Shown here: positions 1,147 through 19,947 of the stretch, piece by piece
How the letters are laid out: every line of letters begins with the position of its first letter
Numbering within the stretch: the stretch's first letter is position 1
Assembly (NCBI GenBank): GCA_020627825.1
Contig: JAHDGD010000014.1
Span: 1-45,960, forward strand
Reading direction: 5' to 3'
DNA length: 45,960 bases
Source: Saprospiraceae bacterium
Lineage (GTDB): Bacteria; Bacteroidota; Bacteroidia; Chitinophagales; Saprospiraceae
The notes under the pieces: model-generated
What the model saw: the letters and a program-made list of their open reading frames with translations, nothing else
What the model was told of the DNA's origin: nothing
Database searches by the model: none
Translations under genes and position numbers: made by a program

Positions 1147-1749
1147 ATGAAGTTTTCCATTTTTTCTCGCAATAAAACGAAATCCGACGAAGAGTTGGTC
1201 TCGTTGTATCAAGAAAATGGCGACATGGAAATACTGGGTGAGCTGTACAATCGATACCTAGAAATGCTCTTCGGTGTATGCATGAAATACTTCAAAGATC
1301 AAATCAAAAGTGAAGATGCAGTGATGCACATCTTCGAACTAGTTGCCAAAAAAATACCTCAACATAATATCGAGTTTTTTAAGTCTTGGCTTTATCGAGT
1401 TGCGAGTAATCATTGCTTGGATGTATTAAGAAAAGAGAGTCGGGATCAAGAGAAAAAAAATTCTTACATAAATATGCAATCTAGAACCTCTCATCGTCTT
1501 ATTCATGAAGATGATACCTCCTGGATGTGGAAAGAAGAGAAATTGAATGCATTGGAAGCGTGTATAGAGCAACTAAAAGCAGAACAGAAAGAATGCATCA
1601 ACTTGTTTTATTTACAAGGATTGAGTTATGCAGAACTTAGTGAAAAACTTCAAGTGAACTGGTCGAAAGTCCGTTCACTGATTCAGAATGGTAAAAGAAA
1701 TCTTAAAAATTGCGTAGAACGTAGCTATGAAGCAGCACGAAATAAATAA
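1147..1749 (+). CDS. ECF RNA polymerase sigma factor (module 1)
   Basis: This 200-residue protein has the two-domain layout of extracytoplasmic-function sigma factors. Region 2 covers roughly residues 15-90, with the helix containing KSEDAVMHIFELVAKK and the FFKSWLYRVASNHCLDVLRK stretch that contacts the -10 element. Region 4 covers roughly 130-190, with QKECINLFYLQGLSYAEL leading into a helix-turn-helix. It should direct core polymerase to a small regulon. Its last 23 bases overlap the next gene, a membrane protein, which is the usual arrangement of an ECF factor with its regulator. The stretch of basic residues before region 4 is unusually long but within family variation. Confidence 0.9.
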   Translation: MKFSIFSRNKTKSDEELVSLYQENGDMEILGELYNRYLEMLFGVCMKYFKDQIKSEDAVMHIFELVAKKIPQHNIEFFKSWLYRVASNHCLDVLRKESRDQEKKNSYINMQSRTSHRLIHEDDTSWMWKEEKLNALEACIEQLKAEQKECINLFYLQGLSYAELSEKLQVNWSKVRSLIQNGKRNLKNCVERSYEAARNK

Positions 1750-3001
1750 ATTACTAGAACAATATCGAACAGGTACGATTTCTCCGTCCGATCGACATCT
1801 ACTGGAGCAATTGGCCACGGAAGATGATTTTGTTTTTGATTCGATTCAAGGCATAAAAAATGCCGATGCTTCATATGATATGGATGGGTTAAGAACTAGA
1901 TTGATAAAGCGGGTTGAGCCCAAAAAGAAAAGAATATTACCTTTATGGGTTTCCAGTGCTGCCGCTGTTCTTCTTCTTTTATTAGGTGTTTTCTGGTTCA
2001 TAAACCCTAGTCAACAGGAAAGCAATAAAAACGTATTGGCTGACGCAATTCCCACTACGACACATTCTGAAACAAGTAAAGAAGAAAACGTCCTTATAAA
2101 TCAGCAAAAAGAGCGTGAAGTACTAGATCAAAAAAATCATGATATAGAAGAATCCGAAGAGGATATGGAGATTACTTCAACAGCAATAAAAAAAGAACAG
2201 AAAGATGAATCTATTCCTGTTGAAGTTACTCAAGAGTCATCCATTTCAACCATAGAGCCCGTATTAACTTCGATTCCTGAGAACGAAATAGCAGAAGGTT
2301 CAATTGAAAACGATGTTATGGATGATGATGAAGTGGTAGAAGTTTTAGCTGGAGACTTGAATACAGAATATAGTCCTGAAAGAAGTTCTCCTCCTCCTCC
2401 GGCTGCAAAAACAAGTTCCCCTACGAAAAAAAGAAAAGCAGCAGAATCTTTTAATAGCGCTATAGATGGTGTTGCGATAGGTAAAGGAAAAACATATTCC
2501 GGCATCGTTACTGACTTTTATGGCGATCCTTTAATCGGAGCTTCTGTTCATTTATTAGGAACTGATCAATATGCCAGTACGGATATTGATGGTACTGTCC
2601 AGTTCGTAAATGTTCATATTGAAAACCCGAGGGTACTTGTTGATTACACAGGTTTTATACCTGCAGAGGTTCCCATAAAAGAATCCTTTTCTATTCAATT
2701 AAAAGAAGGTGCAGTTCTAGAAGAAGTAGTAGTTGCAAACGTTGAAAATATGAATGAATCCATACCAGAGATAGGATGGGACACATTTCATAAAATGGTT
2801 GAAGATCAACTCCAACTTACTCCTCTTTTATCCAGAAATACAAAAGCGGACATTCATATTGAATTCAATGTTCGACAAAATGGATTTCCAGTTGATATAA
2901 AAGTGCTTTCAGGAAAAGAGAACCCGAAAACTTCTGCAATACTTCAACTATTAGCCACATCTGGTAAATGGAGTCCAGGTAAAGGCACCATTCGCTATTG
3001 A
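1727..3001 (+). CDS. Putative membrane anti-sigma protein with CarboxypepD_reg-like and TonB-C-like domains
   Basis: The 424-residue protein begins with about 68 cytoplasmic residues of short helices ending in a basic patch (KKKR). One membrane helix follows at about 71-92 (LPLWVSSAAAVLLLLLGVFW), then a long acidic Ser/Glu/Pro linker to about 240. A carboxypeptidase-regulatory-like beta domain follows at about 255-325 (YSGIVTDFYGDPLIGASV). The last 90 residues resemble the TonB C-terminal fold (DIHIEFNVRQNGFPVDIKV and a GKWSPG turn). It overlaps the ECF sigma gene by 23 bases. By context the cytoplasmic part may hold the sigma factor and the periplasmic part may sense an envelope signal. That role is inferred; no classical zinc anti-sigma motif is visible. 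Confidence 0.72.
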   Translation: MKQHEINKLLEQYRTGTISPSDRHLLEQLATEDDFVFDSIQGIKNADASYDMDGLRTRLIKRVEPKKKRILPLWVSSAAAVLLLLLGVFWFINPSQQESNKNVLADAIPTTTHSETSKEENVLINQQKEREVLDQKNHDIEESEEDMEITSTAIKKEQKDESIPVEVTQESSISTIEPVLTSIPENEIAEGSIENDVMDDDEVVEVLAGDLNTEYSPERSSPPPPAAKTSSPTKKRKAAESFNSAIDGVAIGKGKTYSGIVTDFYGDPLIGASVHLLGTDQYASTDIDGTVQFVNVHIENPRVLVDYTGFIPAEVPIKESFSIQLKEGAVLEEVVVANVENMNESIPEIGWDTFHKMVEDQLQLTPLLSRNTKADIHIEFNVRQNGFPVDIKVLSGKENPKTSAILQLLATSGKWSPGKGTIRY

Positions 3002-5823: not shown

Positions 5824-7722
5824 TTATTTATTTCGATTTTGAATTAACTCTTTTACAATGTCAGGATTAAGTAATGTCGAAATATCGCCTAATTGGTCCA
5901 TCTCATTACAAGCAATTTTCCTTAAAATTCTTCTCATGATTTTGCCTGATCGCGTCTTTGGCAATCCACTTGTAAATTGAATCTTATCAGGTTTCGCTAT
6001 CGGTCCTATCTCTTTCCTTACAACAGCGCATATTTCATCTTTAAATTCGAGATCTAATTCTTTATCCTGGGTGATAACAAAGGCATAAATCCCTTGTCCT
6101 TTAATATCATGAGGATAACCAACGACAGCTGACTCTATTACATTAGGATGTTCATTAATCGCATTTTCTACTTCTGCTGTCCCCATTCTGTGACCTGATA
6201 CATTGATAACATCATCAACTCGTCCTATAACTCGAATTCTCCCTTGATCATCTCTTCGAGCACCATCTCCAGTAAAATACATATTCTTAAACAATGAAAA
6301 ATAAACACTCTTACATCTTTCATGATCTCCGTATGTTGTTCGGATCATTGATGGCCAAGGGTGTTTTATGCACAACAAACCTTCAACATTATTTCCTTCT
6401 TTTAGATTACCTTCGTTGTCAACCAATACTGGTTGAATACCCGGTAAGGGATAAGAAGCATATGTTGGTTTTGTATCTGTAATTCCAGGTAAGGGTGAAA
6501 GCATGATTCCGCCTGTTTCCGTTTGCCACCACGTATCAACAATTGGCGCTTTTCCTTTTCCTATATATTGATCATACCAATGCCATGCTTCTTCATTTAT
6601 TGGCTCTCCCACAGATCCCAATACTTTCAATGAAGAAAGGTCATACTTACCAGGCCATTCATTCCCTTGAGCCATCAAAGCTCTTATAGCTGTTGGTGCC
6701 GTATAAAATTGATTGACTCTGTGTTTCTCGCATATTGCCCAAAATCTACCAGCATCAGGACAAGTAGGTACTCCTTCATACATCATTGTCGTGGCTCCCG
6801 CAAGTAATGGACCATATACAATGTAAGAGTGTCCTGTAATCCAACCTATATCCGCAGTACACCAGTACACATCTCCTTCTTTATATTGAAAAACATTTTT
6901 AAACGAATAACAGGTATATACCATATATCCGCCAACAGTATGTACAACACCCTTTGGCTTTCCAGTTGATCCTGAAGTATATAAAATAAACAACAGATCT
7001 TCACTATCCATTATCTCTGGTTCACATATAGGTTCTTGCTTCTCCATTAAATCAGCCCAATCAATATCTGTATCATCCGACCAATTGATTTCCTCTCCAG
7101 TATTCCTGTATACAATTACATTTTTTACACTATTGCAACTGATATCCATAGCATCATCAACGACTTGTTTTACTGGAATACATTTCATTCCCCTATTGTT
7201 AAAATCTGAACATATAATAACGTTGGCTTGAGCATCATCCACTCGATCTGCTAAAGCCTGTGCAGAAAAACCAGCAAAAACAACACTATGAACGGCTCCT
7301 ATCCTTGCACAGGCTAAAACGCCTATCGCTAATTCAGGAACCATTGGCATGTAAAAAACCACTCTGTCTCCTTTTTGAACACCAATTTCTTTTAAACCAT
7401 TTGCACACTTACATACTTCGTCATGCAATTCTTGATAGGTTAAGCTTACTACTTCTTCGTCAGGCATATTGGCTTCCCAGATAATGGCTTTTTGATTTGC
7501 TTTTGTCGCTAGATGCCGATCTATACAATTAACTGTAATATTGGTTTTGCCTCCTAAAAACCATTTCACAGAAGGTTCAGTAAAATTCCATTCACAAACT
7601 CTTTCAAAAGGTTCATACCAATAAAAATGTCGCGCTTGTTCTTCCCAATATTTTTCAGGATTTTCAATGCTTCTTTGATAATGTTCTTTGTATTCTTCTA
7701 TTGATTTAATCTGAGTCGTCAT
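5824..7722 (-). CDS. acs: Acetyl-CoA synthetase (AMP-forming)
   Basis: A 632-residue enzyme that activates acetate to acetyl-CoA through acetyl-AMP in the cytoplasm. Length and order match the family (E. coli 652). Visible motifs are the acyl-adenylate P-loop YTSGSTGKPKGVVHT near residue 250, the acetate-pocket motif WWQTETGG, and YFTGDGARRD followed by GRVDDVINVSGHR at the domain hinge. The C-terminal TRSGKIMRR contains the catalytic lysine (about K594), which is regulated by acetylation in other bacteria. It is alone on its strand, with a long divergent region before marR. No ATG upstream would add family-like sequence, so the chosen start is good. Confidence 0.97.
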   Translation of the reverse strand: MTTQIKSIEEYKEHYQRSIENPEKYWEEQARHFYWYEPFERVCEWNFTEPSVKWFLGGKTNITVNCIDRHLATKANQKAIIWEANMPDEEVVSLTYQELHDEVCKCANGLKEIGVQKGDRVVFYMPMVPELAIGVLACARIGAVHSVVFAGFSAQALADRVDDAQANVIICSDFNNRGMKCIPVKQVVDDAMDISCNSVKNVIVYRNTGEEINWSDDTDIDWADLMEKQEPICEPEIMDSEDLLFILYTSGSTGKPKGVVHTVGGYMVYTCYSFKNVFQYKEGDVYWCTADIGWITGHSYIVYGPLLAGATTMMYEGVPTCPDAGRFWAICEKHRVNQFYTAPTAIRALMAQGNEWPGKYDLSSLKVLGSVGEPINEEAWHWYDQYIGKGKAPIVDTWWQTETGGIMLSPLPGITDTKPTYASYPLPGIQPVLVDNEGNLKEGNNVEGLLCIKHPWPSMIRTTYGDHERCKSVYFSLFKNMYFTGDGARRDDQGRIRVIGRVDDVINVSGHRMGTAEVENAINEHPNVIESAVVGYPHDIKGQGIYAFVITQDKELDLEFKDEICAVVRKEIGPIAKPDKIQFTSGLPKTRSGKIMRRILRKIACNEMDQLGDISTLLNPDIVKELIQNRNK

Positions 7723-7850
7723 CGAATTTTCTTTTCTAGTAAATATAAAAAAATAGTCTTTTTTGGATGCGAAAGAACGAATAAAGGGGTCTTATTTACA
7801 TCCATCTACTTTCACTTATCGATCAATATTTCAACTATGGTAAAAAGATA

Positions 7851-7872
7851 TTTTGGGGTTTAAACCCCAAAA
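7851..7872. repeat. Perfect 22-bp palindrome of the GGG/CCC family
   Basis: TTTTGGGG and CCCCAAAA flank a central TTTAAA. It lies between acs and marR. Neither strand has a terminator-like T-run after the stem, so it is better seen as a member of the dispersed palindrome family described in the findings. Confidence 0.7.
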
Positions 7873-7936
7873 AAAATAGAAAAACAAGTTTCTTTTGGCC
7901 AGTTTAATCGTCTTTATTGCGACATTTTACATTTAT

Positions 7937-7960
7937 TGTTTAAACATTAATGTTTAAACA
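7937..7960. promoter_or_regulatory. Double palindrome, probable MarR operator
   Basis: Two identical perfect palindromes, TGTTTAAACA at 7937-7946 and 7951-7960, are separated by TTAA, giving a 24-base palindrome overall. It ends 14 bases before the marR start codon. MarR dimers bind palindromes of this size and commonly repress their own operons, so this is the likely autoregulatory site for marR-yceI. Confidence 0.68.
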
Positions 7961-7974
7961 TCGTTATTTGAGCT

Positions 7975-8430
7975 ATGAGTATTGAAAAAGACTTGAAACA
8001 AAATAAGCCGTTTGGTACAATGCAGGAAAAATGCTTGGTTAATATCATGTACACCTGTAGATTCATAGAAAGTAATATCAAAAAGCTTTACAAGAGCTAC
8101 GGGATTACTGGAAAACAATACAATATTTTGAGAATTTTAAGAGGGGCAGGAAAACCAATAAGTACACAAGTTATACGAGATCGCATGATTGACAGAATGT
8201 CTGATATTTCTAGGATCGTAGACCGATTAGTAGATAAAGATTTTGTTTCTAAATGCATCAACAAAGAAGATAAGCGTCTTGTTGACGTTACGTTATCACA
8301 AAAAGGAAAAGACCTTTTAGAAACGATAGATAAAAATATAGGACCTGAAGATTATGATACACATAATCTTTCACATCAAGAAGCAGAAACGTTAAACAAG
8401 CTTCTCGACAAAATAAGAGGATACAATTAA
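7975..8430 (+). CDS. MarR family transcriptional regulator
   Basis: A 151-residue winged-helix repressor. The N-terminal dimerisation helices are followed by the DNA-reading part at about residues 55-105 (ISTQVIRDRMIDRMSDISRIVDRLVDKDFV) and the wing (KEDKRLVDVTLSQKGKDLL), which carries the family's Asp-Lys-Arg signature. It precedes a YceI gene by 20 bases, a common pairing in Bacteroidota, and a strong palindrome sits just before its start, so autoregulation is likely. The inducing ligand cannot be told; there is no conspicuous redox-sensing Cys pair of the OhrR type, although two Cys occur at about residues 20 and 28. Confidence 0.93.
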   Translation: MSIEKDLKQNKPFGTMQEKCLVNIMYTCRFIESNIKKLYKSYGITGKQYNILRILRGAGKPISTQVIRDRMIDRMSDISRIVDRLVDKDFVSKCINKEDKRLVDVTLSQKGKDLLETIDKNIGPEDYDTHNLSHQEAETLNKLLDKIRGYN

Positions 8431-13447: not shown

Positions 13448-15307
13448 ATGAGTGACATAATTCAGTTGCTTCCAGACTCTATCGCAAACCAGATAGCTGC
13501 TGGGGAAGTGGTTCAAAGACCGTCTTCCGCAGTAAAAGAATTGCTTGAAAATGCTATAGATGCTGGTAGTTCTTCCATAAAGCTAATTCTAAAAAATGCT
13601 GGAAAAACACTTATTCAAGTTATCGATGATGGCAAGGGTATGTCGCCAATGGATGCAAGAATGTGTTTCGAACGTCATGCCACTTCCAAGATTCGCAATG
13701 CTGATGATCTTTTTGCCATTCACACCATGGGGTTTCGTGGTGAAGCAATGGCTTCTATTGCCGCAATTGCACAAGTGGAGTTAATAACGAAAGAAAAGGA
13801 TAGTGACTTAGGAACAATGCTCCACATTGCAGGAAGTACTCTTACAAAACAAGAACCCTGTCAAGCTGCGGATGGAACCTCTATTTCAGTGAAAAATTTA
13901 TTTTTTAATGTTCCTGCACGACGCAAATTCTTGAAATCAGAAGCAACAGAATACAAACATATTCTTGATGAATTTCATAGAATTGTATTGTGCTATCCCC
14001 ATATAAAATTTTCATTGTTTCATAACAACAATGAGATTTATCATCTTCCCTCAAGCAATCTAAGGCAACGAATAGTAAATGTTTTCGGGCGAGCAATGAA
14101 TGAAAAATTGGTCCCTTTAGAAGAAAATACGGATACCCTTGGGATTACAGGATTTATATTAAAACCTCAATATGCAAGAAAAACAAGAGGTGATCAATAT
14201 CTATTCGTAAACAATCGATTTATTAAAAGCAACTACATGAATCATGCGGTTCGATTCGCATTTGAAAATTTAATATCTGCCGATTTACATCCTGGTTTTT
14301 TTATCTACTTGACCATCGATCCTGCCAAAATTGATGTTAATGTTCATCCTACCAAACAAGAAATAAAATTCGAAGAAGAACGGCTTATTTACAACTATAT
14401 AAAAGTGGCTATCCGTCATGCTCTTGGCAAACATAACTTAACCCCTTCTATTGATTTTGATTCAACAAACTTTAATTCTACGGTTCCGAATCCTTCAACC
14501 GGATTTACTTCTGTTCCATCTTCTATGGGATCTACTAATTCTAGAGAAGATGCATATGATAGCTATAAAAAACAAGAAAAAGCGAATGTAAAAAACTGGG
14601 AATCATTATACGAGGGTCTGATTGATATAAAACCAGAAGAGACACAGAATCCGAATGAACAGAACGAAGGGAATGTATTCACTGTAAAGAGTAAAATCTT
14701 TCAAGAAGAAAAAGAAGATAAACTGATCCAAGACTTTCAAGATCAACAATTTTTTCAATTACATAATCGATATATTCTATCTCCTATAAAGTCTGGCTTC
14801 ATCTTGATCGACCAACAAGCAGCACATGAACGGATACTATATGAAAAATATCTTAATCATATAGATACCGAAACGAAAAGTGCTCAACAAAGTTTGTTTC
14901 CTGAAACGATAGATTTGTCTGCATCTCAAGCAGAAATGCTTAAAAACGTATTGCCATATTTAGTTGCAATGGGTTGGGAAATCGAAGATTTTGGTGGTCA
15001 TTCATTCATCATTCGAAGCCTACCTGAATCCTTCGAACAACAAGGTGAAATCAAGGATGAATTACTCAGTTTGGTAGAGAACATCACAGATGAAAAAGAT
15101 GTTAAAAAGGAAAAAGAATTGATGGCTAGAAGAATGGCAAAAAGAATGTCCGTTCGCAAATACAAAAAGTTGACTCTGGAGGAAATGAAGTCCTTAGTCA
15201 ATACTTTATTTGCTTGCGAACACCCTTATCTTTCTCCTTCTAATAAAAGTGTCATTACAACCTTTACCTTAGAAGAAATCATGCAACGCTTTAATATTAC
15301 AAAATGA
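13448..15307 (+). CDS. mutL: DNA mismatch repair protein MutL
   Basis: A 619-residue MutL. The GHKL ATPase is at about 1-330: ELLENAIDAGS, DDGKGM and TMGFRGEA are intact, followed by a variable acidic linker (about 335-440) and a C-terminal dimerisation domain. The metal-binding endonuclease motif, usually DQHA(x)2E(x)4E, reads DQQAAHERILYE at residue 455, so its His is Gln while both Glu are present. The downstream ACEHP replaces the usual CPHGRP. Nicking activity is therefore uncertain. The gene abuts the small membrane protein and overlaps the rhomboid gene by 4 bases. Confidence 0.96.
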   Translation: MSDIIQLLPDSIANQIAAGEVVQRPSSAVKELLENAIDAGSSSIKLILKNAGKTLIQVIDDGKGMSPMDARMCFERHATSKIRNADDLFAIHTMGFRGEAMASIAAIAQVELITKEKDSDLGTMLHIAGSTLTKQEPCQAADGTSISVKNLFFNVPARRKFLKSEATEYKHILDEFHRIVLCYPHIKFSLFHNNNEIYHLPSSNLRQRIVNVFGRAMNEKLVPLEENTDTLGITGFILKPQYARKTRGDQYLFVNNRFIKSNYMNHAVRFAFENLISADLHPGFFIYLTIDPAKIDVNVHPTKQEIKFEEERLIYNYIKVAIRHALGKHNLTPSIDFDSTNFNSTVPNPSTGFTSVPSSMGSTNSREDAYDSYKKQEKANVKNWESLYEGLIDIKPEETQNPNEQNEGNVFTVKSKIFQEEKEDKLIQDFQDQQFFQLHNRYILSPIKSGFILIDQQAAHERILYEKYLNHIDTETKSAQQSLFPETIDLSASQAEMLKNVLPYLVAMGWEIEDFGGHSFIIRSLPESFEQQGEIKDELLSLVENITDEKDVKKEKELMARRMAKRMSVRKYKKLTLEEMKSLVNTLFACEHPYLSPSNKSVITTFTLEEIMQRFNITK

Positions 15308-15891
15308 TACAGATTACACCAGTTGTTAAAAATCTATTGATCATCAATATTTTTGTTTTTGTATCCATTGCCATTACAAGGATGCAATTACCAGAGTTAG
15401 TCTATTATATGCCTTTGCATCGATTGAATAACCCATATTTTCAGCCATTTCAGTTCGTTACAAGCATGTTTACACACTATAGTTTAGGGCATATCTTTTT
15501 CAACATGCTGACTTTGTTTTTTTTCGGACCATTGGTAGAAAATCGAATTGGTCCTCGAAAAACCTTCTTTGCCTATTTGATCGGTGGCTTGTTATCAGCT
15601 ATTGTTTTCTTTATCTTCTTTAGCTTTATACAACCCACCAATTTCCATTTACTTGGTGCATCGGGAGCAGTTTATACTATAATCGTACTTGCTGCATTAT
15701 ACTATCCGAACATGAAAGCTGGCTTGTTATTTTTACCTTTTCAATTTCCACTTGGATACATGGCGGCTGCTTTTATTACACTTGATATTTTGTTCTTTCG
15801 ATCAGGAGCAAGTACAGGTACAGCACACCTTGCCCATTTAGCAGGAGCTGCACTAGGGTTTATTCTATACTATTGGTGGGAAAAGAGATAA
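15304..15891 (+). CDS. Rhomboid family intramembrane serine protease
   Basis: A 195-residue polytopic protein with about six membrane helices. The catalytic Ser lies in GASGAVY (Ser120) and the catalytic His in AHLAGAALG (His178), giving the rhomboid dyad. The first loop contains the HYSLGHIFFNMLTLFFFG stretch, with the conserved His and Asn of the oxyanion site. It cleaves membrane-protein substrates within the bilayer; the substrate here is unknown. Its ATG overlaps the mutL stop (ATGA), so the two are translationally coupled, although no functional tie to mismatch repair is known. Confidence 0.95.
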   Translation: MIQITPVVKNLLIINIFVFVSIAITRMQLPELVYYMPLHRLNNPYFQPFQFVTSMFTHYSLGHIFFNMLTLFFFGPLVENRIGPRKTFFAYLIGGLLSAIVFFIFFSFIQPTNFHLLGASGAVYTIIVLAALYYPNMKAGLLFLPFQFPLGYMAAAFITLDILFFRSGASTGTAHLAHLAGAALGFILYYWWEKR

Positions 15892-15958: not shown

Positions 15959-17575
15959 TTAAAAAACATACCCCACTCCAAGTCGTAGACCAATATCAGT
16001 ATATCGCAATTCGATAGGATGTTCATCCCTTATCCAATTAGACAAGTGAGAACGGAAATCAATTCCACCTGAAAGCACAACTCGGTTTTCTGTATAATAT
16101 CGCAGTCCGAGTCCTCCTGTTAATTTATATCCTGTTGATGTTTTGAATACAGGACGCTCATCAAAAGAAACAACATCTACATTATCAACAATATGATAGC
16201 CGCTTCTAGAAGTATATAAATTGACAGACATCCCTATATCTCCGTAGACGGCTAGTGCTGAATTAAGTGCAATTTCATATCCTACAGCAGCTGTGAATTC
16301 AACCATACGATGGTAATTATAGGTGCTGTATAGAGCCATAGAATCTTGTGTAACTTCTAATGGTGCAGGAATTGTATCATTCATACCATCAGGACGAATA
16401 ATAATAATTACCGGAAGATCTTCAACTGTTGTTATGGTTTGACTCAAATTAATATCAAATTTTTCGTCAAGCTGACCATATCCTACACCTCCGTGAACAT
16501 ATAATCCACTATTAGTTTGATATCTGCCTACTGCATTCACCTGAAAGGTTTCAAGATACTTTTCTGTTTCAAGCTTATTTTGTTTCCATAGTTCACCTTC
16601 TTCTGAAAGTGCTGTAATCCTAGGAATACTATAATATGGAATGGCTTGTACCTCACCTACAAAATACCCTCTTAATCCACCTCTACTTCCTCCTCCAAAA
16701 GAAGGGCATGTAACCTTATTGGGTGGTAAAGACCCTATAAATTCAGTTGTTGCATCCATCTTTGTAAGATTGAAATGAGCCATATTTTCCAATGAATTCG
16801 AATAAACCAAAGATGTTTTAGAAGTAGATAATTCTTCAAGTTCTGTTGATTGATTCGCTACCTCTGTTGCTAATTCGACTTGTGTTTCGTTCTTAGTGTC
16901 TCCTATTTTTGTTACCGTAGATTCTTGAGCAACGGATGAACTGGAAATGTTAGATTCATTCGTTGACGGAAATTCTTCTGACGTTTGATGACTAGAAGGA
17001 TTACTAGTTGGGTTTACACCCAAAGGTGATGACTCTTTTGATGGTTCATTTTGTGGCAACATCATTGTTGATGAAGTAGAATGAGATGTATTTTCAAGAG
17101 AGGATTCAGAATTCTTGGACACAACGCCTTCAATAGGATTGCTATTGACGTTAGATGATGCAATGTCACTATTGTTTGACGTCCTATTATGTCCTGTCTT
17201 CTTTATTTCCTCAGAACCTACATATTCTTTATTTGAACTTGATGTTGCTGAAGTTGATGCAATGTGTGTCGTATTTGGTGTAGATCTTTGATCAAATGGT
17301 TCAGATTGTTTGTTTTGGTGTTGTGATTGAAAATAAAATATTGCAGCTATACCTATAAGTCCTACTACTGAAAGTCCAAGTATCCATTTCGTACTAATTA
17401 AGGAAGTAAGAATTCCTCCTTTAGCTGCTGTTGCCGAAGCACTTGAAACAGCAGTACCAGTCGCTGCTTCCGTCATTCCCGCTTGGATTCCTGCCCATAA
17501 GTTATCTGTATTTACAGCACTTTCGTAACTGGACAGCTTTGATTTTATACTATGTTCAAGTTTATCTTTTTCCAT
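15959..17575 (-). CDS. Putative dual-membrane-spanning anti-sigma protein with outer-membrane barrel
   Basis: A 538-residue protein in three parts. Residues 1-60 are cytoplasmic (MEKDKLEHSIKSKLSSYESA and an Ala/Thr stretch), followed by one inner-membrane helix at about 63-82 (WILGLSVVGLIGIAAIFYF). A Ser/Thr/Asn/Glu-rich linker spans about 85-260, long enough to cross the periplasm. The C-terminal part, about 295-538, shows alternating amphipathic strands, glycine and tyrosine turns and a final Phe (GVGYVF), as in small outer-membrane barrels. It overlaps the upstream ECF sigma gene by 31 bases. The layout matches the dual-membrane-spanning anti-sigma (Dma) proteins reported in Bacteroides. 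The anti-sigma role is inferred from position and layout. Confidence 0.75.
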   Translation of the reverse strand: MEKDKLEHSIKSKLSSYESAVNTDNLWAGIQAGMTEAATGTAVSSASATAAKGGILTSLISTKWILGLSVVGLIGIAAIFYFQSQHQNKQSEPFDQRSTPNTTHIASTSATSSSNKEYVGSEEIKKTGHNRTSNNSDIASSNVNSNPIEGVVSKNSESSLENTSHSTSSTMMLPQNEPSKESSPLGVNPTSNPSSHQTSEEFPSTNESNISSSSVAQESTVTKIGDTKNETQVELATEVANQSTELEELSTSKTSLVYSNSLENMAHFNLTKMDATTEFIGSLPPNKVTCPSFGGGSRGGLRGYFVGEVQAIPYYSIPRITALSEEGELWKQNKLETEKYLETFQVNAVGRYQTNSGLYVHGGVGYGQLDEKFDINLSQTITTVEDLPVIIIIRPDGMNDTIPAPLEVTQDSMALYSTYNYHRMVEFTAAVGYEIALNSALAVYGDIGMSVNLYTSRSGYHIVDNVDVVSFDERPVFKTSTGYKLTGGLGLRYYTENRVVLSGGIDFRSHLSNWIRDEHPIELRYTDIGLRLGVGYVF

Positions 17576-18108
17576 GAATCGTCATTCTCTGTTTGAATAA
17601 TTCTTTTTCTTAATATCGCTTTTGCACGTGCTAGATTGGATCTTGACGTAGAAGCATTAATGTTTAGTTTTTCACCTATTTCTTTATGATCATATCCTTC
17701 CATTATATATAAGTTAAATACCATTCGATATTGATCGGGTAATTCTCTTACTAATGCAAGAATTTGTTCTTCATGAAGATCGGACCATACTTTTGGATCC
17801 GCTTTTATATAAAGTGTTTCAGGATCTTCGGATTGATGATAATCCATATATTTTTTTCGTCTTCTTAGTGCTTCGTTCGCTACAATTCTACTCATCCAGT
17901 TTTTCAGTTTGCCTTTTTCCTTACTGAATTGATGAAAGTTTGAAAATACCTTAATGAAAGCTTCTTGTAATATATCTTGAGCACTTGCTTCATCTGGCAT
18001 ATAACGTCTTGCAACTGTAAAAAGATAACCTGCATATGTATCCACTAGTGCTCTTTGGGCGGAAGCCTGAGAACGTAAGCAGCCTGATATGATTTCCGTT
18101 TCTTTCAC
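17545..18108 (-). CDS. ECF RNA polymerase sigma factor (module 2)
   Basis: A 187-residue ECF sigma factor. Region 2 is at about 20-95 (YAGYLFTVARRYMPDEASAQDILQEAFIKVF, then LKNWMSRIVANEALRRRKK) and region 4 at about 120-175 (LVRELPDQYRMVFNLYIMEGYDHKEIGEKLNINASTSRSNLARAK). It is distinct from the sigma factor at 1147, having a more canonical region 2.2. Its 3' end overlaps the start of the barrel-bearing membrane protein by 31 bases, implying a sigma/regulator pair. A regulatory-domain lipoprotein lies 81 bases upstream on the same strand and could belong to the same unit. Confidence 0.95.
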   Translation of the reverse strand: MKETEIISGCLRSQASAQRALVDTYAGYLFTVARRYMPDEASAQDILQEAFIKVFSNFHQFSKEKGKLKNWMSRIVANEALRRRKKYMDYHQSEDPETLYIKADPKVWSDLHEEQILALVRELPDQYRMVFNLYIMEGYDHKEIGEKLNINASTSRSNLARAKAILRKRIIQTENDDSWKKINLNIV

Positions 18109-18189
18109 ATTTTCATTTTTGATGATAAAGAGGTTTTGATTAAAGGAATGAGGAGGAAGTAAACTTCCTCCCCATATTGGGCATCCTCT

Positions 18190-19947
18190 TTAATTTTCGG
18201 TTAGATCCCATTCAATTGTTATTTGAACTTCATCTGTTCCTCCTTGTGCGCTTACTGTAACTAATTCAGTAATTCCTTTTACTCGTCCTCCAGTTCCTTC
18301 GTTAATGGTTACGTCTGCCGTTGCACCATCACATCCACTGTTACAGAAGAAGAAACTTCCATTAGGGTTTGATAGCTCAAATGAAAAGAAATCTATACTT
18401 TCAATATTTACTGTTCCTGTTTGTAATTCATCCAATTCTAAATTAAGTTGTACAAATGTAGAATCTTGTCCTTCAGAACCTATAAAATACTGTCCACTTG
18501 GATTAAATCCACCGTAAAGCCATTCGAAAAGTACGATTTCATCAGCTGGATCTTCTACTGTAATCTTGATGAATTCTGTGATTTCATCACACACTTCAAT
18601 TGTCCCAAGGTCTACTGTACCTGTTGTTGTTACCTCTATTGGCTCACTTACCTTAAATTCGTCTAAATCATATCCTTTAACAATTGCATCAACGGATTGA
18701 CATAAAAATAATTCAGACATAAATGCTCCTTGATCATCTATTGGCATGTTATATGCGAAATAATCATATTCAATAAATGCATATCCATTTGTTACTGCTG
18801 ATCCTGCGCAGTTCACTAAATTACCACTGATTGTAGTTGTGTTAATCGCTGGAATTGTGATTGTACCAATATCTGTATCTTCCGTGTATGGACCATAATT
18901 TCCTTCAAATAACACTTCACCACAGTAATCTTTAGCTACAATATTTAATACCTGATTTTTTGGCATTTTACCTGAGAAGTTTCCTTCTGAATCAGTGTAC
19001 CCATATCGCGTACCTATTCCATCCACTGTAATTTCTAGCTGTACAAATCCAGCAGGTGTTCCATTTTCTGTTTCTACTGTACCACTTACCACTACAAGTG
19101 GGAATGGAGCATCACAATTCCAAAATGAAAAATGTGAAACTTGTCCTACATATGATCCATCTTGTAAAGTTGCGGTTCCTTCTTCTTCCCAGTAACCGGT
19201 ATCTTCATTAAATGACCATAATGGAATAGAGCTTGGTGCTATTCCTTGATATTCGGAAGGCAATGGAAAGGTTAGTTCTGCTTCTGTGTTATCCGCCATA
19301 TTAAGTTCTTGTCCTGCGCTTCCTCTTAATTCAACTGCAACCATACCATACGTTGCAAGCTGTACTCCTTCATCATCCGAATTGATCGCTCTTAAATCAC
19401 CAGGCATTTCACTGTCTATCTGATCGCTAGAAGGGTCAATCCATTTAACAAAAACATCTACTGGACCATTGTATGCGTTTCCAGATTGATCTGCTATTGA
19501 ATTAGCAGGAAATACTACTGATGCATTATCAGACGTTGTTACAGAACCTCCCGTTGAACTTTGGATCGTTCCTGTAAGCTCCATCGTTAATAATTTGATT
19601 TGTGTAAACGTTATTGTTCCTACATGAGGATTAACAACTTTTGCACCAATAAAATAACCATTCTTAGAAGCTTTGATGTAACTTCCATTTTTATTAAATT
19701 CACCTTCTACTGTAAAAAAGCCGTTTTCATCCGTAAATGTCGTTTCTCCTTCTACATCTACCAACACATCTTGGAGCGGTGCATTGTCTTCTCCTATAAT
19801 TCTACCATTAATAGAAGTTTCAACTAATACTACTGGATCGTCAAACATTTTGTCACCAACTGAAGTGTCAATAAAGTTATCTCTACACGAACTAAAGATC
19901 ATTAATATTAGGATGCCCATCCAAATGTTACTTCTCAATAATTTCAT
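18190..19947 (-). CDS. Carboxypeptidase-regulatory-like domain lipoprotein
   Basis: A 585-residue predicted lipoprotein with signal MKLLRSNIWMGILILMIFSSC and lipobox Cys21. Two carboxypeptidase-regulatory-like beta repeats are visible, at about 46-115 (NGRIIGEDNAPLQDVLVDVEG) and 286-360 (VSGTVETENGTPAGFVQLEI). Between them is a domain of the type found in FAM171 and cartilage-layer proteins (residues 125-280, with ASVVFPANSIADQSGNAYNGPVDV). The C-terminal third has paired Cys and a beta-rich pattern. It probably sits on the cell surface or periplasmic face. It precedes the second ECF sigma gene and may be its target or sensor partner; no substrate can be named. Confidence 0.8.
   Translation of the reverse strand: MKLLRSNIWMGILILMIFSSCRDNFIDTSVGDKMFDDPVVLVETSINGRIIGEDNAPLQDVLVDVEGETTFTDENGFFTVEGEFNKNGSYIKASKNGYFIGAKVVNPHVGTITFTQIKLLTMELTGTIQSSTGGSVTTSDNASVVFPANSIADQSGNAYNGPVDVFVKWIDPSSDQIDSEMPGDLRAINSDDEGVQLATYGMVAVELRGSAGQELNMADNTEAELTFPLPSEYQGIAPSSIPLWSFNEDTGYWEEEGTATLQDGSYVGQVSHFSFWNCDAPFPLVVVSGTVETENGTPAGFVQLEITVDGIGTRYGYTDSEGNFSGKMPKNQVLNIVAKDYCGEVLFEGNYGPYTEDTDIGTITIPAINTTTISGNLVNCAGSAVTNGYAFIEYDYFAYNMPIDDQGAFMSELFLCQSVDAIVKGYDLDEFKVSEPIEVTTTGTVDLGTIEVCDEITEFIKITVEDPADEIVLFEWLYGGFNPSGQYFIGSEGQDSTFVQLNLELDELQTGTVNIESIDFFSFELSNPNGSFFFCNSGCDGATADVTINEGTGGRVKGITELVTVSAQGGTDEVQITIEWDLTEN

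Follow-up and report, generated by a model that had tools for sequence, protein, structure and literature searches.

A Dma-like sigma/anti-sigma pair predicted to span the cell envelope of a Saprospiraceae bacterium, and its linkage to a lipoprotein with a GAIN/ZU5-like domain

Results

We analyzed a stretch of 45,960 nucleotides from a Saprospiraceae bacterium (GenBank assembly GCA_020627825.1, contig JAHDGD010000014.1, positions 1 to 45,960 of the forward strand), referred to below as the window. The analysis centers on three consecutive genes, transcribed from the minus strand in the order lipoprotein gene, extracytoplasmic function (ECF) sigma factor gene and a gene for a 538-residue protein, which resembles the dual-membrane-spanning anti-sigma (Dma) proteins of Bacteroides (Table 1). 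The lipoprotein and sigma genes are separated by a gap of 81 bases. The sigma protein matched the Pfam models of sigma-70 region 2 (E 2.6e-15) and region 4 (E 2.2e-14), and it matched NCBIfam TIGR02985 with 91.6 bits, under the cut-off of 126.4. None of 200 shuffled sequences folded as well as the hairpin predicted between the two genes (z -4.05). A T run of the terminator type was looked for at this hairpin and none was found; the hairpin could hold lipoprotein output above sigma output.

Table 1. Positions of the lipoprotein, sigma and anti-sigma genes and of their predicted parts within the window
Feature	Position	Strand	Basis
ECF sigma factor gene, 187 amino acids, GTG start	17545..18108	-	Open reading frame; Pfam Sigma70_r2 and Sigma70_r4_2
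Dma-like anti-sigma gene, 538 amino acids, final Phe	15959..17575	-	Open reading frame; AlphaFold model
31-base overlap of the sigma gene and the 538-residue protein gene	17545..17575	-	Open reading frame coordinates
Cytoplasmic head, residues 1-40, helices 3-14 and 23-39; presumed sigma-binding part	17456..17575	-	Model
Inner-membrane helix, residues 56-85, most hydrophobic at 55-73	17321..17410	-	Model, hydropathy
Disordered periplasmic tether, residues 86-300, rich in Ser, Thr, Asn and Glu, one Cys (290)	16676..17320	-	Model, composition
8-stranded OmpA-type outer-membrane barrel, residues 304-538	15962..16666	-	Model, structural alignment, Pfam
Lipoprotein gene, 585 amino acids, lipid Cys21; probably a partner or a target	18190..19947	-	Open reading frame, linkage
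GAIN/ZU5-like domain of the lipoprotein, about residues 124-293	19069..19578	-	Model, structural alignment
His272-Phe273-Ser274, candidate self-cleavage site	19126..19134	-	Between strands 265-270 and 275-282
Strong RNA hairpin between the lipoprotein and sigma genes, core about 18148-18175	18126..18192	-	Folding compared with shuffles

The structure of the 538-residue protein was predicted with AlphaFold from an alignment of 38 rows, in which the window protein was joined by 37 relatives taken from named records. A tether of some 215 residues (86 to about 300), composed of 20% Ser, 12% Thr, 10% Asn and 10% Glu, received predicted local distance difference test (pLDDT) values mostly below 50. 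The barrel was predicted with eight long strands within residues 304-537 (block pLDDT 70-98, mostly above 90), and Pfam OMP_b-brl matched the protein with an E value of 2.2e-7. A second structural alignment set the residues from about 299 to 538 on known barrels. These were first of all OmpA (9fzc, Z 16.4, 166 aligned residues, root mean square deviation [rmsd] 2.8; 1bxw, Z 15.7; integrative model 9a2m, Z 16.9), along with NspA (Z 15.8), a designed barrel (Z 15.3) and OmpW (Z 15.0). Both ends of the barrel would lie in the periplasm, which fits a tether attached at its N terminus. A PDB sequence profile search from the barrel alignment gave nothing useful. A FecR-type anti-sigma factor was also considered for the 538-residue protein and rejected, with no such family found in Pfam (E up to 1) or NCBIfam (E up to 0.01). 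A ZipA model matched the linker at E 8e-4, but its 19.6 bits fell short of the cut-off (119.65), and the match was taken as low-complexity similarity.

An earlier, sequence-only reading of this DNA had given the coordinates, the strand, the length of 538 residues, the final Phe and the 31-base overlap with the sigma gene, all of which agreed with our check of the open reading frames. Its short cytoplasmic part and single inner-membrane helix were recovered in the model and the hydropathy profile. The C-terminal domain, for which a soluble fold had been the alternative, was predicted as an OmpA-like barrel. The linker had been put at about 175 residues, which is too short in the light of the model and the composition; it is indeed rich in Ser, Thr and Asn, with Glu to be added. 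The likeness to Dma proteins held as well, with head, membrane helix, disordered tether and barrel found together in one predicted model.

We then asked how widely the pairing of such genes occurs. The genome of the bacterium itself (4.46 Mb) contains at least five sigma/barrel pairs: besides the window pair, two were found by a protein search and two more with a profile built from 28 relatives, with weaker matches also listed. The barrel-protein profile matched 57 of the 61 genomes of the same taxonomic family. It also matched at least 76 of 296 genomes drawn from the phylum, a lower bound because at most five candidates were scored per genome. A recognized sigma gene was present in 29 of the 32 loci examined in the first family search, and two of the three exceptions were truncated by the locus end. 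By this survey, barrel-bearing anti-sigma factors are common in this lineage, with several copies per genome.

By a second route, named genomes were searched with the sigma gene alone and the best 80 loci were taken, of which 78 have a following open reading frame; their titles nearly all name Bacteroidota (L124 is titled only "bacterium"). The gene next to the sigma gene matched the head profile in 76 cases out of 78 and the barrel profile in 55 (E <1e-3), whereas none of 440 control open reading frames of at least 200 amino acids in the same loci matched either profile. These counts rule out that an ordinary porin stands beside the sigma gene by chance. Both profiles were matched at a locus titled Bacteroidaceae bacterium (L130) and at a Coprobacter locus (L156); the culturable relative Phaeodactylibacter xiamenensis (L143) has a barrel pair as well. 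Beside the Coprobacter pair lies a lipoprotein that may be NigD-like (E 0.0035, short of the cut-off), which is of interest because Dma1 is reported to act through NigD1 (PMC13088901).

Outer parts of several kinds seem to occur with this head. Pairs lacking a barrel match carry the head together with other or shorter C-terminal parts, and several of these proteins have just 212-319 residues. In L117, L133, L138, L147 and L152, the same head follows the sigma gene in proteins of 212-249 amino acids that have no barrel match; in L078 (748 amino acids) and L079 (771 amino acids), it is joined to a long, different C-terminal part. Moreover, 9 of 158 relatives carry the short head motif repeated in tandem, two to four times (four copies in L109, at 6515-8203; also L032, L098, L099, L101, L105, L106, L116 and L171). 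Such tandem heads are in keeping with a sigma-binding unit of some 30 residues that is present more than once, as if one tether held several sigma molecules or gripped one more tightly. Together with the barrel-less forms, they offer natural variants for comparison. A CxxF motif before the barrel was found in 45 of 120 proteins by a loose pattern.

The lipoprotein encoded upstream of the sigma gene belongs to a single family with two forms: members encoded downstream of the pair have about 320 residues, and those encoded upstream about 590. A profile search seeded by one short lipoprotein downstream of a relative's pair reached the large upstream type, and the reverse search reached one short type. 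The family is present in 54 of the 61 genomes of the same taxonomic family. Among lipoprotein matches of at least 100 bits, 55 of 71 lie beside a Dma gene, 54 of them within 3.5 kb of a listed Dma match and one found by reading the other 17 neighborhoods. Counted from the Dma side, 51 of 126 typed matches have such a lipoprotein neighbor. In the bacterium's own genome, the lipoprotein accompanies three of the five pairs, namely that of the window, C51 (889-residue form, L252) and C224 (short form).

When the count was confined to pairs flanked by at least 900 bases on either side, a lipoprotein stood within 1 kb of 30 of 66 barrel pairs versus 0 of 24 others (Fisher p 9e-6), a comparison for which the lipoprotein profile had been built from barrel neighbors. 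The idea that the lipoprotein is strictly tied to barrel forms was dropped, as only 4 independent pairs were found on well-supported branches and the tree gave no significance. Among same-strand neighbors, a simple lipobox rule picked out lipoproteins in 27 of 61 cases downstream and in 7 of 55 cases upstream, compared with 48 of 351 other open reading frames; by this crude measure, enrichment is on the downstream side only. The sequence-only reading had offered the lipoprotein as a partner or a target of the pair. The conserved linkage upholds the connection and favors neither role. The same reading had proposed a survey of sigma/barrel pairs in related genomes, and the pairing recurs across the family and the phylum, as described above.

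Among the 68 members of the lipoprotein family (of 78) that are readable after the lipid Cys, Lys stands at position +3 in 43 and an acidic residue at +4 in 57. These residues are close to the surface-export signal reported for Capnocytophaga, C-X-K-(D/E)2 (PMC5080379). The window protein, with CRDNFID, is only a partial fit.

The lipoprotein was modeled from a 20-row alignment, and the model is mostly confident over residues 41 to 465, approximately. Residues 44-122 aligned with a transthyretin-like carboxypeptidase domain (2nsm, Z 11.9). The region from about residues 89-119 to 284 aligned both with the GAIN domain of CD97 (9mqr, Z 10.3, 140 aligned residues, rmsd 3.2; 8ikj, Z 9.8) and with the ZU5 domain of ankyrin-B (4d8o, Z 10.1, 128 aligned residues, rmsd 3.3; 6m3q, Z 9.8). 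These Z values are modest. They come from a second alignment of Foldseek candidates; Foldseek alone ranks a Bacillus surface protein, pilins and teneurins first. Pfam matches of the lipoprotein with E values up to 10 included no ZU5, GAIN or GPS model, and the FAM171A N-terminal model matched below its cut-off. We also observed that the window at 19048-19593, which covers the GAIN/ZU5-like region, matches animal FAM171A2 by sequence (PDB 9y6n, E 6.6e-4). A PDB sequence profile search from the lipoprotein alignment gave nothing useful.

The case for a GAIN/ZU5-like domain is strengthened because an HFS motif falls in a strand break. Of 38 large-type rows, 33 have HF[ST] at this break (31 of 35 when near-identical rows were left out), compared with 0 of 39 short-type rows. 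According to the alignment end points, Ser274 falls at CD97 residue 531 if the last strands align gap-free. We take this residue to be the cleavage serine of CD97. HF/S has been described as the cleavage sequence of PIDD, just past its ZU5 domains, and SF/S as that of CARD8 and NLRP1 (PMC3210808); the GAIN cleavage site is given as H-X-S/T (PMC13062082). The lipoprotein domain may thus cut itself at HFS, as judged from the model, with the reservation that a GAIN domain carrying the motif can still fail to cleave (PMC13062082). The likeness to the GAIN domains of adhesion G-protein-coupled receptors (GPCRs) and to the ZU5 domains of PIDD, CARD8 and NLRP1 consists of the predicted fold (Z of about 10) and a motif of the H-X-S/T type where the strands break. 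In contrast to those systems, the lipoprotein is bacterial and lipid-anchored, has modest Z values and lacks a Pfam ZU5 or GAIN match, and it is known here from sequence and a model. ZU5 domains were noted earlier in large bacterial surface proteins (PMC3482391). Among the matches listed in searches of the open-licence literature, we found no report of a ZU5/GAIN lipoprotein tied to a sigma/anti-sigma pair.

Discussion

By its layout, the predicted pair is supported as a further member of the known Dma kind. The Dma family is described as confined to Bacteroidota and as adjoining ECF21 sigma factors (PMC13088901). With the Dma1-3/Das systems of Bacteroides thetaiotaomicron, the window pair shares the N-terminal anti-sigma part, a single membrane helix, a long disordered tether, a C-terminal barrel, the adjacent ECF sigma gene and its occurrence in Bacteroidota. 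A third operon gene, reported for Dma2, is a further point of likeness; Dma3 has a sigma domain at its own N terminus (PMC13088901). The window pair differs in coming from another lineage, Saprospiraceae, and is likened to Dma1-3 by layout and description. A similar arrangement was reported for M0N98_03761/03760 of Phocaeicola vulgatus, in which the sigma gene is likewise followed by a large anti-sigma gene whose product is predicted to reach across the periplasm to a barrel in the outer membrane (PMC9308784). The function of that pair was derived from mutants and toxin treatment, whereas for the window pair it is predicted. In cell-surface signaling through TonB-dependent transducers and FecR-type proteins, as commonly outlined, an outer-membrane event also controls an ECF sigma factor. 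There, however, barrel and anti-sigma factor are separate proteins, in contrast to the single chain with an 8-stranded OmpA-type barrel predicted here.

What appears to be new is the neighboring lipoprotein with its predicted GAIN/ZU5-like domain, linked to such pairs. This link is not mentioned for Dma in the available part of the source (PMC13088901).

Taking these observations together, we consider it probable that the locus encodes a Dma-type trans-envelope sigma/anti-sigma module in which the state of the outer membrane is reported by the barrel, probably jointly with the lipoprotein. Seen directly are the gene layout, the predicted domains and barrel fold, the family-wide pairing with ECF sigma genes and the linkage of the lipoprotein family. 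In the proposed mechanism, the two-helix cytoplasmic head would hold the ECF sigma factor, with one helix crossing the inner membrane, the disordered tether crossing the periplasm and the barrel sitting in the outer membrane. A change in the outer membrane acting on the barrel, probably involving the upstream lipoprotein, would be relayed along the chain and free the sigma factor from the head. The freed sigma factor would then transcribe a presumably envelope-related regulon. The anti-sigma sign of the long protein is supported because loss of Dma2, which raises vesicle production in a manner that needs Das2, acts through its sigma factor (PMC13088901), and because insertions in the barrel-bearing anti-sigma gene of P. 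vulgatus switch its regulon on (PMC9308784). The proposed module bears on the route by which a single chain could convey an event in the outer membrane to a sigma factor in the cytoplasm.

Several observations weigh against this interpretation. The head, presumed to bind the sigma factor, is the least certain folded part of the model (pLDDT blocks of 68-77 for its helices), and it fell under the threshold in 2 of the 78 genes next to a sigma gene (L158 and L168). The barrel profile was absent in 23 of these 78. At L014, the barrel protein has no recognized sigma gene directly upstream, and a lipoprotein gene is found there instead. With respect to the lipoprotein, 16 of the 71 matches lacked a recognized pair in the stretch read, a few of them being on short contigs or at contig ends; for 75 of the 126 listed Dma matches, the listed matches include no member of the lipoprotein family within 3.5 kb. 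Moreover, the association between barrel and lipoprotein was not significant when relatedness was allowed for.

The data favor none of three ways of release, namely a pull on the chain, loss of the barrel fold or proteolysis. The sequence-only reading had suggested signaling without a protease relay; no observation puts this ahead of release by proteolysis, and we do not adopt it. A real possibility, to which we give somewhat less than an even chance, is that a signal at the barrel or the lipoprotein makes the tether or the membrane helix accessible to proteases, whose cleavage of the anti-sigma protein frees the head together with the sigma factor. A long disordered tether such as the predicted one would be an easy target, and stepwise proteolysis is described as one established activation route for ECF sigma factors (PMC4183432). 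A rhomboid protease gene is the convergent neighbor of the 538-residue protein gene, at 15304-15891. As a partner, the rhomboid was set aside, for it was not seen beside the pair of a same-genus relative (L004) within the stretch of about 1.5 kb there.

Slightly less favored is the alternative that the lipoprotein is merely a target of the regulon or a co-expressed surface protein, with the barrel sensing alone or with other partners. By both counts given above, fewer than half of the barrel pairs have the lipoprotein beside them, and it also occurs alone. It can lie on either side of the pair, and in the window the hairpin parts its gene from the sigma gene. In B. thetaiotaomicron, Dma1 is reported to induce a gene of lipoprotein type, NigD (PMC13088901). 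Against these points, the gaps to the lipoprotein gene are in many loci short or overlapping (downstream mostly below 70 bases, one upstream of -4) and favor one operon, an arrangement that would suit a partner and a target alike.

We regard it as unlikely that the protein is a sensor of barrel assembly, in which failed insertion by the beta-barrel assembly machinery (BAM) frees the sigma factor and the readout is the assembly capacity of the outer membrane and not a ligand from outside. Even with its anchor in the inner membrane, the chain would still have to deliver its barrel to the outer membrane, and a toxin that induced such a regulon in P. vulgatus was reported to induce also many genes responsive to a BamA inhibitor (PMC9308784). 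This explanation, however, leaves the linked lipoprotein unexplained. Since sequence does not reveal the sign of control, the long protein could in principle be a positive regulator that the sigma factor needs, which is very improbable given that, in the relatives tested, the sigma factor becomes active once the barrel protein is lost (PMC13088901, PMC9308784).

Within the proposed Dma-type module, the candidate cleavage site invites a more speculative extension, which we hold to be rather doubtful. The three gene products might form a three-part receptor similar to a bacterial adhesion GPCR, with a surface lipoprotein cut by itself at HF|S and its fragments staying together. A ligand or pulling force would strip off the outer fragment, and the exposed stub would act on the barrel loops. 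The single trans-envelope chain would pass the stub signal straight to the sigma factor, and the short-type partners lacking the motif would represent an uncut version. If the lipoprotein is a sensing partner, one serine would offer a defined handle for switching the input off.

Additional observations

No Rfam families at gathering score and no tRNAs were found in the window. In seven related loci from Bacteroidales or Bacteroidota (L118, L129, L136, L149, L155, L163 and L172), the pair is followed by a protein of 312-339 residues, which in L118 is an SLT transglycosylase, and then by a gene that is presumably uvrA-like. On the plus strand of the window, at 1147-3001, a second ECF-type sigma gene (1147-1749) overlaps a gene for a 424-residue protein (1727-3001). 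The latter product has a hydrophobic stretch and a CarboxypepD_reg-like domain and is possibly an anti-sigma factor of another kind.

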